From assembly GCA_030680855.1 (NCBI GenBank), contig JAUXUN010000070.1, positions 62,001 through 126,000 on the forward strand: a DNA stretch of 64,000 nt, written 5' to 3'. The stretch's first letter is position 1. Each line of letters starts with the position of its first letter. This document shows positions 33,656-35,579 of the stretch, in pieces. The DNA comes from Aestuariivirga sp. Its GTDB lineage: Bacteria > Pseudomonadota > Alphaproteobacteria > Rhizobiales > Aestuariivirgaceae. A program made the translations under genes and the position numbers. Under the pieces are notes generated by a model. The model saw nothing but the letters and a program-made list of their open reading frames with translations. It ran no database searches and was not told where the DNA came from.

Positions 33656-34600
33656 ATGGCCACGCCGCGTGTAATCCTCACCATCCCTGCCCTCAGCCTG
33701 GCGGCGGCGGAAGACATGGCAAACCGGTTCGAGAGTGATTTCCGGATCGAGCCGCTGGCTGTCACCATCAATGAAACCGATGAGTCCAAAGATCTTTGGG
33801 AAACCGTGGCGTATTTCGCCACTGACGAAGTTGCTGAGGAAGCGCGGCGGCTTCTGCAAGTGCCGACAGGCATTATATCAACGCTGCCGGATAGGGACTG
33901 GGTCAGGCATTCGCTTGAAGGACTTGCACCTGTCGTGGCGGGTCGGTTTTTTCTGTACGGCTCCCACGACCGTGACCGCCGACGCCATGGCGGTGTGCCG
34001 TTTGAAATCGATGCGGGAACGGCATTTGGAACCGGGCATCACGGCACCACAGCCGGCTGCCTTCTTGCCCTTGATGCGATCCTGAAACGGCGGCGGCCGG
34101 AACGCATTCTGGATCTTGGCTGCGGCACGGGCGTGCTGGCCATTGCTGCCGCCCTTGCCACGAAACGCAGAACCCTTGCTACCGACATTGACCCGGAAGC
34201 GGTGCGGGTGACGGAGTTGAATGCGAAACTCAACGGCGTCGCACCCCTGCTCAATGGCGTGACGGCACCGGGGCTCAAGCACACCCGCATCGCCCGTGGC
34301 GCGCCCTATGATCTGATCTTCGCCAACATCCTGGCGCGACCCCTGATCAGCCTGGCCCATGGCCTGAAAGCCATTCTGGCCCCGGGCGGAACCCTCATTC
34401 TGTCTGGTCTCACCCGCGATCAAATCCGCTGGGTCTCAGCCTCCTACCGCAATCGCGGCCTCTTCCCCAGCCAAACCCTATTGCTCGGAAACTGGGCCAC
34501 CCTCGTGTTCAGCAACCCGGCAAAAGAAAACCGCCCGAAAAGCGTGCGCATTGGGCGGTTAGTATCCAGTGCTGTAGGCAAGGGATGGGAAGAGGCTTAG
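33656..34600 (+). CDS. prmA: Ribosomal protein L11 methyltransferase PrmA, extended C-terminus
   Basis: Methylates lysines and the N-terminus of ribosomal protein L11 with SAM. It has 314 residues. The SAM site ILDLGCGTGVLAIAAA is at about 151-166; DAGTAFGTGHHGTT (about 118-131) and FANILARPL (the NPxx-type catalytic motif as in the family) are present. The normal end near GNWATLVF (about residue 285) is followed by about 27 extra residues, NPAKENRPKSVRIGRLV and on to EEA, which are encoded across a hairpin that serves as terminator of the opposite-strand gene. The stop overlaps the DUF1127 stop by three bases. Start: ATG 33656, no alternatives needed. Confidence 0.93.
   Translation: MATPRVILTIPALSLAAAEDMANRFESDFRIEPLAVTINETDESKDLWETVAYFATDEVAEEARRLLQVPTGIISTLPDRDWVRHSLEGLAPVVAGRFFLYGSHDRDRRRHGGVPFEIDAGTAFGTGHHGTTAGCLLALDAILKRRRPERILDLGCGTGVLAIAAALATKRRTLATDIDPEAVRVTELNAKLNGVAPLLNGVTAPGLKHTRIARGAPYDLIFANILARPLISLAHGLKAILAPGGTLILSGLTRDQIRWVSASYRNRGLFPSQTLLLGNWATLVFSNPAKENRPKSVRIGRLVSSAVGKGWEEA
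34521..34560 (-). terminator. Intrinsic terminator of the DUF1127 gene, inside prmA
   Basis: On the minus strand AACCGCCC (34560-34553) pairs with GGGCGGTT (34536-34529), and TTCTTTTG follows. The loop of 16 bases can form a small inner stem. It lies 37 bases downstream of the DUF1127 stop. On the plus strand it is coding sequence for the PrmA tail. Confidence 0.7.
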
Positions 34601-34791
34601 TTGCCCCAAACCATCTTTTCGATTTCCGAACGGCGCACACCGATATCGGCAAGCATCCGGTCGTCGAGCTGGTGCAACTGGCGCTCAGCCCGGGTGCGGG
34701 CGAAATAGCCCTTTACGCGGCCCATGATGCCGGGAGCAAAATCACTGCCCTTGATGTGGCTGGTTTCGCGGCCATAAGTTACTGTCGTCAT
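34597..34791 (-). CDS. DUF1127 domain protein
   Basis: A 64-residue basic protein. The C-terminal half, RAERQLHQLDDRMLADIGVRRSEIEKMVWG, is the DUF1127 domain (RxxxELxxLdDrxLaDIGlsR). In some Rhizobiales, DUF1127 proteins influence phosphate or sRNA-linked regulation, and in others motility or stress traits, but no function can be assigned here. A strong AAGGAG precedes the ATG at 34791. It is followed by its own terminator at 34521-34560 and preceded by an AT-rich spacer with a perfect 15-base palindrome. Confidence 0.9.
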   Translation of the reverse strand: MTTVTYGRETSHIKGSDFAPGIMGRVKGYFARTRAERQLHQLDDRMLADIGVRRSEIEKMVWGN

Positions 34792-35154: not shown

Positions 35155-35185
35155 AATAAAAAATGCCCGACCTATTGGTCGGGCA
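35155..35185 (-). terminator. Intrinsic terminator of the cold-shock gene
   Basis: On the minus strand TGCCCGACC, loop AATA, GGTCGGGCA (35185-35164) followed by TTTTTTATT. A perfect 9-bp stem with a T run, 28 bases downstream of the cspA stop. This is the clearest intrinsic terminator in the window. Confidence 0.88.
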
Positions 35186-35212
35186 CCGTAATTCGCAAAG
35201 TTTTGCTAGCGA

Positions 35213-35422
35213 TTAAGCAGCAGTCAGATTGCCAGCCGAGCTCTTGCCCGTGCGCTTGTCGGTCACGATTTCAAAGGAGACCTTCTGGCCTTCCTTGAGA
35301 GTGCGCAGACCGGCGCGCTCTACAGCGGAAATATGGACGAAAACATCCTTGCTTCCGTTGTCCGGTTGAACAAAGCCGTAGCCTTTTTGCTCATTAAACC
35401 ACTTTACAGTACCCGTATTCAT
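35213..35422 (-). CDS. cspA: Cold-shock protein, CspA family
   Basis: A 69-residue single OB-fold RNA chaperone. RNP1 [11 protein letters not shown] (residues 13-23) and RNP2 VFVHIS (about 28-33) are intact, and the start [17 protein letters not shown] is canonical. ATG 35422 follows AGGACGATCCC. Candidate promoter at 35580-35608 implies a leader of about 150 bases, the length seen in cold-regulated csp genes where the leader controls translation. A strong terminator follows. The paralogue number in the genome is unknown, so the symbol is generic. Confidence 0.95.
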
Positions 35423-35579
35423 GGGATCGTCCTTCAGTTGGGTTATAGTGAGGCCTTGTTGAATTGCAAAAGCAGCGCAAAAAGACCCATGTAGTCGATT
35501 ATTGGAGGAGTCTTTGCGGCACGCGTCCCACAGGGATAGCGAACTGGCCAATCGTCCGGCCCAAGTTTTCGATGCAAAT

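Follow-up and report, generated by a model that had tools for sequence, protein, structure and literature searches.

That a terminator can lie inside an opposing gene is already known. In E. coli, a survey counted 58 convergent overlaps, with a rho-independent terminator used by one gene in 19 of them and by both genes in 2 (PMC2174442). According to the available excerpts of two papers, mutation of a stop codon is the model for how convergent overlaps arise (PMC2174442, PMC4161906). A related situation is reported for SelB. Its C-terminal extension is encoded over selC, the gene for tRNA-Sec, in Alphaproteobacteria, and over the complement of selC in Shewanella and a few Ferrimonas (PMC8124441). 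Finally, excerpts on the CIN1 locus describe the DUF1127 gene ccaF1 with CcsR sRNAs, and the cuckoo/ar14 RNA family (PMC10253847, PMC10746234); in the excerpted text, the Rfam family ar14 corresponds to CCUCCUCCC anti-Shine-Dalgarno sRNAs (PMC10746234).

The locus studied here lies in a 64,000-nucleotide stretch of DNA, the window, whose nearest named records are uncultured Rhizobiales/Hyphomicrobiales, Aestuariivirga and Taklimakanibacter. On its plus strand, prmA (33656-34600) encodes a ribosomal protein L11 methyltransferase of 314 residues. Residues 51-286 match the Pfam PrmA profile PF06325 with 181.1 bits (cut-off 22), which assigns the protein to the PrmA family, and the structures 1ufk and 3grz are relatives in the PDB. 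The convergent gene on the minus strand (34597-34791) encodes a small DUF1127 protein of 64 residues (PF06568, 33.2 bits versus a cut-off of 23.3). The two genes overlap by the four bases TTAG (34597-34600, both strands). The prmA stop TAG occupies 34598-34600 on the plus strand and the DUF1127 stop TAA 34599-34597 on the minus strand. The two stop codons have two bases in common, and not three as given in the initial annotation. Next to this pair, a match to the Rfam cspA thermoregulator (about 35158-35499, minus strand; L112:1503-1844) covers the cold-shock gene adjoining DUF1127. With 62.3 bits it is just below the gathering score of 78 (E 2.4e-13); sub-threshold matches were also found in 15 more of the 28 loci scanned.

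Typically, the PrmA chain ends with the final strand of its methyltransferase domain, although this is not strictly a defining feature. The window protein departs from it. Its last predicted strand spans residues 280-286 in the AlphaFold model and is followed by a tail, residues 288-314 (34517-34597, plus strand). Alignment with the solved chain 1ufk_A (254 residues), from Thermus thermophilus PrmA, runs through residue 252 of that chain, equivalent to window residue 285. As the Pfam domain ends at 286 and this alignment at 285, about 27 residues are extra, which bears out the length first estimated from the sequence. The AlphaFold2 prediction, obtained with a 55-sequence alignment, has a mean pLDDT of 85.5. 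It gives residues 293-314 values below 50 and no docked position for the tail or its tip. On this model the tail is most likely disordered, so that a short linear motif would be the simplest role for the tip. The tip itself is the C-terminal peptide GKGWEEA (34577-34597, plus strand), corresponding to a family pattern GxGWExD. Among the 12 papers listed, of 73 matched by a literature search on C-terminal extensions of PrmA, none deals with such a tail, as far as titles and the first lines of abstracts tell.

The minus strand of the tail-coding region carries an intrinsic-terminator-like element of DUF1127 (34521-34560). Its 8-bp stem is formed by 34560-34553 and 34536-34529, closing a loop of 16 nt. 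Both stem arms, AACCGCCC (34529-34536) and GGGCGGTT (34553-34560), are located within the last 27 codons of prmA, and the stem is followed on the minus strand by the U-rich tract TTCTTTTG (34528-34521). The hairpin at 34529-34560 and its U-tract inside the translated tail are thus as first described. A G+C-rich stem followed by the U-rich tract TTTTCTTTTG on the minus strand corresponds to an intrinsic terminator; the window (G000) fails a stricter terminator rule because of its 16-nt loop. The stem is present in the minus-strand fold of 34600-34500, with a z-score of -2.6 versus dinucleotide shuffles (5 of 200 shuffles as stable). Compared with synonymous randoms, the minus strand of the window tail is no more stable (z +0.32), and the hairpin of the window is weaker than those of its relatives. 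No U-run follows the stem on the plus strand. Because the hairpin precedes the prmA stop, termination there would yield a stop-less message, and the arrangement of the sequence points to a one-way terminator for DUF1127 as the most likely assignment. Just past the DUF1127 stop, a C/U-rich stretch, CCUCUUCCCAUCCC (34582-34595, minus strand), aligns with CUCCCAGCC of relatives in the 3'UTR alignment.

Within the window's family, a search with an E limit of 1e-40 detected PrmA in 62 of the 69 genomes. After five partial matches were left out (G059, G066, G074, G076, G078), 57 prmA 3' regions were analysed. A convergent DUF1127 match lies downstream in 51 of these loci (tblastn with the window protein, E up to 1e-3). 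Among the other six, the contig ends within 160 bases of, or before, the prmA stop in G050, G060 and G084, and no DUF1127 was detected after prmA by the same search in G024, G075 and G077. PrmA extends at least 25 residues past residue 281 in 32 of the 57 loci, each at least 55% identical to the window; G065 and G067 also reach this length, but are more distant and were treated apart. The motif or a close variant, GxG[W/Y][E/A]x[D/A/G], closes 30 of the 32 tails. Within these 30, Ala replaces the first Gly in five and Ser the second Gly in one. Ala also stands in place of Glu in G019, G022 and G041, which are related to one another.

Tallied by genus code, g1 (to which the window belongs), g25 and g21 together have 39 genomes whose prmA 3' end is readable, and 30 of them carry the tip motif; of 17 genomes of other genera (g18, g20, g22-g24, g26), none does. 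The tail is not a peculiarity of the window genome: most readable PrmA proteins of the genus and its sister genus carry it. The exact four-base overlap occurs in only some relatives. The nine g1, g25 and g21 genomes without the motif (G008, G010, G012, G013, G014, G051, G062, G072, G073) fall, by eye on the PrmA tree, in about seven lineages. With 9 of 39 readable genomes missing it, the tip is dispensable over evolution. The initial annotation had predicted a tail that is absent or variable where the neighbour differs. The tip is kept in G024, in which no DUF1127 was found behind prmA. G067 (L158) and G065 (L166), both of g23, have a second, different PrmA tail, GQ[I/L]LIA[K/E]WLGRRF, and a strict terminator lies inside that of G065. 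Old synteny of the pair is suggested by L065-L111, where 28 loci, most of them with titles of Rhodobacterales genera, have a DUF1127 ORF on the other strand 339-726 nt downstream of prmA.

Comparison of genera gives an outline of how the tail arose. prmA has an early stop, shortly behind the core, in most of the family's other genera. The DUF1127 terminator is within the spacer in G061, G063, G068 and G079, and straddles the prmA stop in six g18 genomes and in G064. In these g18 genomes (L153-L155, L157, L160, L161) the prmA stop is in the loop region of the terminator hairpin. G062, the sister to g25 on the PrmA tree (support 92/76), reads LKHPA*AKRPGARA in frame, with its stop directly before the sequence translated as KKRPG in the tail-bearing genus. 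G062 thus combines an earlier outgroup stop with an untranslated spacer that matches the extension. Together, the early stops of other genera and this pre-loss state make stop loss the best account, and the aligned sequences make a loss of the prmA stop a well supported reading. The move of the prmA stop is old, not a recent accident. The proposal that it had moved into its neighbour agrees with the earlier stops of most other genera and with the untranslated, in-frame tail start of G062; it also fits the stop-codon mutation model, as the excerpts present it. G048 (L114) shows a further arrangement. Its prmA-DUF1127 spacer is 326 nt long, and the DUF1127-type 3'UTR and terminator are seen twice by eye, with one copy behind DUF1127 and one in the prmA tail. 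A TTGACA-N17-TATAAA sequence was noted by eye on the minus strand between the two terminator copies.

The DUF1127 3'UTR is constrained as RNA. It was aligned on the DUF1127 strand for 32 of the 51 genomes with DUF1127; G005, G012, G013, G019, G048, G061, G068, G072, G073, G079, six g18 and three g23 genomes were omitted, partly by length and partly by choice, a selection that favours agreement. The RNAalifold consensus of the 32 sequences contains one stem of 9 pairs, the terminator. In this stem 92.5% of cells are paired and 8 of the 9 pairs show compensatory change, with 50 compensatory cells; shuffles give 16.1, and none of 500 reached the observed count. Sliding one partner by one to three columns lowers pairing to 29-51%. 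Minus-strand folds of the 32 tails have a mean z of -1.26 versus synonymous randoms, 13 being below -1.64; for 64 core segments of the same length the mean is -0.09, with 4 below -1.64. By the strict rule, a minus-strand terminator lies within the prmA coding sequence in 28 of the 36 tails that reach at least 20 residues past residue 281, window included, where synonymous-codon randomisation predicts 5.0. The eight misses are G000, G048 (terminator in the spacer), G049, G020, G014, G024, G019 and G067.

Several other candidate elements were set aside. Single folds show one more hairpin, past the CUCCC motif and ahead of the terminator, but the consensus structure consists of the terminator stem alone. 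Other DUF1127 copies were considered as a source of a common 3'UTR element; among the 13 genome Pfam matches compared by eye, the window's included, the CUCCC-hairpin-terminator layout was found in no other copy of the same genome. The Rfam family freshwater-2 matched the DUF1127 5'UTR of the window with E 2.1 and was absent from a later scan that included the same stretch (L112).

At the protein level, the tail divides into a linker and a tip. Parsimony changes per site on the PrmA tree, at codon positions 1/2/3, are 3.8/2.7/10.1 in the core, 7.3/6.8/9.1 in the U-tract, 6.1/5.8/7.1 in the hairpin, 9.9/7.5/10.9 in the middle part and 3.2/3.8/8.1 in the tip. The ratio of the third position to the mean of the first two is 3.12 in the core, 1.30, 1.19 and 1.26 in U-tract, hairpin and middle, and 2.30 in the tip. 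Pairwise dN/dS, calculated from all 496 pairs, which are not independent, follows the same division, with 0.26 for the core, 0.53, 0.74 and 0.73 for U-tract, hairpin and middle, and 0.24 for the tip. The linker is close to neutral as protein, its codons changing almost like non-coding DNA, and the tip is under constraint comparable to that of the core. Within the tip, the first Gly (0/2/12), the second Gly (1/0/9), the Trp (0/2/2) and the Glu (0/1/6) follow a coding pattern. The two x sites (7/6/7 and 14/7/13) have no third-position bias, and the Asp site shows 0/7/7. The view that the tail has no conserved function is therefore adequate for the linker, with its almost non-coding mode of evolution, and probably wrong for the tip, given its third-position changes and its persistence in G024.

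Four genomes bear on what maintains the tip, and two of them, G024 and G019, serve as natural experiments that set tip and terminator apart. The 3.5 kb that follow prmA in G024 yielded no DUF1127 match; the neighbour there is a gene of opposite orientation whose translation looks, by eye, like a guanylate kinase. The G024 tail has no hairpin signal (z +0.53), yet it ends in GRGWEMDI. In G019, a terminator-like hairpin with TTTTGTTTTG was identified by eye past the prmA stop, in a spacer of 119 nt; the strict rule finds no terminator in this genome. The G019 tail has no hairpin signal either (z +1.65) and ends in GPGYAQDV. The third observation concerns G013 and G014, where the reading frame of the tail is lost. 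Comparison of the two shows differences at 4 of 80 3'UTR sites versus 66 of 200 core third positions (Fisher p about 1e-7), and at 12 of 55 third positions of DUF1127. The counterpart of the window's C/U-rich stretch (34582-34595) is kept in both, where it is no longer coding. Because this DNA is almost unchanged without the tail frame, part of the tip conservation may be at the RNA level.

We consider it probable, though well short of certain, that these data reflect a stop loss into the DUF1127 3'UTR, which left a linker dictated by the terminator and a tip, GxGWExD, under coding constraint. As judged from relatives, the prmA stop would have been lost in the ancestor of the window genus and its sister genus. 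prmA would then have read into the convergent DUF1127 3'UTR, bringing the terminator into its reading frame. On the minus strand, sequence and covariation suggest that the element still terminates DUF1127. Past the stop at 34597, the polymerase would make the stem 34560-34529 and let go of the transcript at the U-tract, which lies within prmA. The stem has no U-tract behind it on the plus strand, so the terminator would act one way, and transcription and translation of prmA would pass across it. In PrmA, the G+C stem and the run of A facing the U-tract would be read as a basic, flexible linker (K-K-R-P...G-R) under little protein-level constraint. Behind this linker, coding constraint would have taken hold of GxGWExD, whose most likely role would be that of a short signal for binding or stability on a disordered arm.

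The main competing explanation makes the whole tail passive, tip included: prmA would simply read the DUF1127 3'UTR, and conservation would reflect the opposite-strand RNA element, with its C/U-rich motif, hairpins and terminator. The near non-coding evolution of the linker codons is what this explanation predicts. G013 and G014 also speak for it, since in them the 3'UTR (CUUCCUCCCAGCCGGGAUCAYUCCCGG, terminator) has outlasted the reading frame, and so do the CUCCCAGCC columns, which, with the terminator, are among the most conserved parts of the 3'UTR alignment. The pattern of change in the tip is harder to reconcile with it, because the free sites are third codon positions, the Gly wobble positions having 12 and 9 changes versus 0-2 at first and second positions. 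Moreover, G024 retains the tip in the absence of a DUF1127 match or a hairpin signal, and G019 retains a variant of it although its terminator-like hairpin lies outside the tail. A fully passive tail thus appears rather unlikely to us. Far less probable still is that the tail reflects a faulty assembly, a frameshift error or a neutral event of recent date confined to one genome. Movement of a stop is, in the excerpts mentioned above, a proposed common route to convergent overlaps (PMC2174442, PMC4161906), and the restriction of the exact four-base overlap to some relatives would agree with a recent event. As a recent or single-genome event it is nevertheless refuted by the 32 of 57 related loci, from separate assemblies, whose PrmA continues at least 25 residues past residue 281.

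A further proposal concerns the nature of the RNA beneath the PrmA tail. The DUF1127 3'UTR could be an ar14/cuckoo-type sRNA, processed from the DUF1127 mRNA and exposing the anti-Shine-Dalgarno sequence CCUCC in hairpin loops. Rfam RF02344 matches the DUF1127 3'UTR in 7 of the 28 loci scanned (L116, L119, L123, L124, L132, L152, L162) and nothing else in these 28 loci at E up to 10. Five of the seven matches are coding and two (G061, G063) are in non-coding spacers. The loop of the DUF1127 terminator contains CCUCC or CUCCC in 12 of 45 cases, versus 0 of 69 other terminator-like loops of the same loci, and the pairing of DUF1127 genes with CcsR-like sRNAs has a precedent in the CIN1 locus, as excerpted (PMC10253847). 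All matches are, however, far below the gathering score (22.0-27.2 versus 58.8 bits), the best one reaching 27.2 bits with E 0.0011 on 161 bases of the relative L119 alone. Other families score alike at the same place, namely P15 (L119, L123) and ftsZ-DE (L124, L132, L134, L144), and 12 further Rfam families match the L119 stretch at E up to 1, so part of the ar14 signal comes from generic G+C-rich hairpins. Ten of the 12 CCUCC/CUCCC loops belong to close relatives in one part of g1. The window has neither an ar14 match nor CCUCC in its terminator loop; nothing reached the gathering level in 14 loci, nor in 7 others. Of 34 other prmA-DUF1127 gaps, 31 of which come from outside the family, a single one contains the full CCUCCUCCC; the motif in the terminator loops of relatives is the shorter CCUCC or CUCCC.

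We therefore treat an sRNA of this type as a doubtful identification. Within the family, the likeness to ar14/cuckoo would be a sub-threshold resemblance, a lead. The narrower idea of equating the window DUF1127 with that of ccaF1-CcsR (CIN1), cuckoo array included, was rejected, in view of the single CCUCCUCCC among 34 gaps and of the seven loci with nothing at gathering level. It is still less likely that a functional GxGWExD peptide arose de novo by overprinting the antisense of an ar14/cuckoo-like regulatory 3'UTR. If it did, one short DNA stretch would be selected as terminator and sRNA on one strand and as peptide on the other. In the same region of G079 (L165:3401-3471, plus strand), the DUF1127 3'UTR, rich in CCUCCC and CUUC, has sub-threshold matches to Rfam suhB/mmgR (25.4 versus 41 bits) and anti-hemB (26.5 versus 49.5 bits, E 0.043).

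What is new here is the lineage-wide character of the case and the separation of RNA and protein constraints. About 30 related genomes, several losses and one neighbour swap provide naturally replicated observations, which make it possible to distinguish, codon by codon, selection at the RNA level from selection at the protein level on one stretch of DNA. On the preferred reading, a stop loss into a neighbour's terminator can leave behind a basic linker dictated by that terminator and a conserved terminal peptide.

Compared with the CIN1 locus as excerpted, the present one shares a DUF1127 mRNA with downstream hairpins and, in some relatives, CCUCC in hairpin loops. It differs in that CCUCCUCCC is nearly absent, the window has no loop of this kind and none of the scanned loci gives a gathering-level Rfam match. 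The overlaps of the E. coli survey, as far as its excerpts describe them (PMC2174442), resemble it in their convergent genes, TTAG stop overlap, terminator inside the frame of the other gene and origin by stop-codon mutation. Unlike in that survey, the arrangement is genus-wide here, the constraints on terminator RNA and on protein are separable by codon, and the peptide behind the terminator looks selected. The nearest protein parallel to the PrmA tail is the SelB extension over tRNA-Sec. In that case (PMC8124441), a C-terminal extension is likewise the translation of a structured RNA, on the antisense side in the reverse case. The RNA is a tRNA gene in SelB, whereas in PrmA it is the terminator and 3'UTR of the DUF1127 mRNA.
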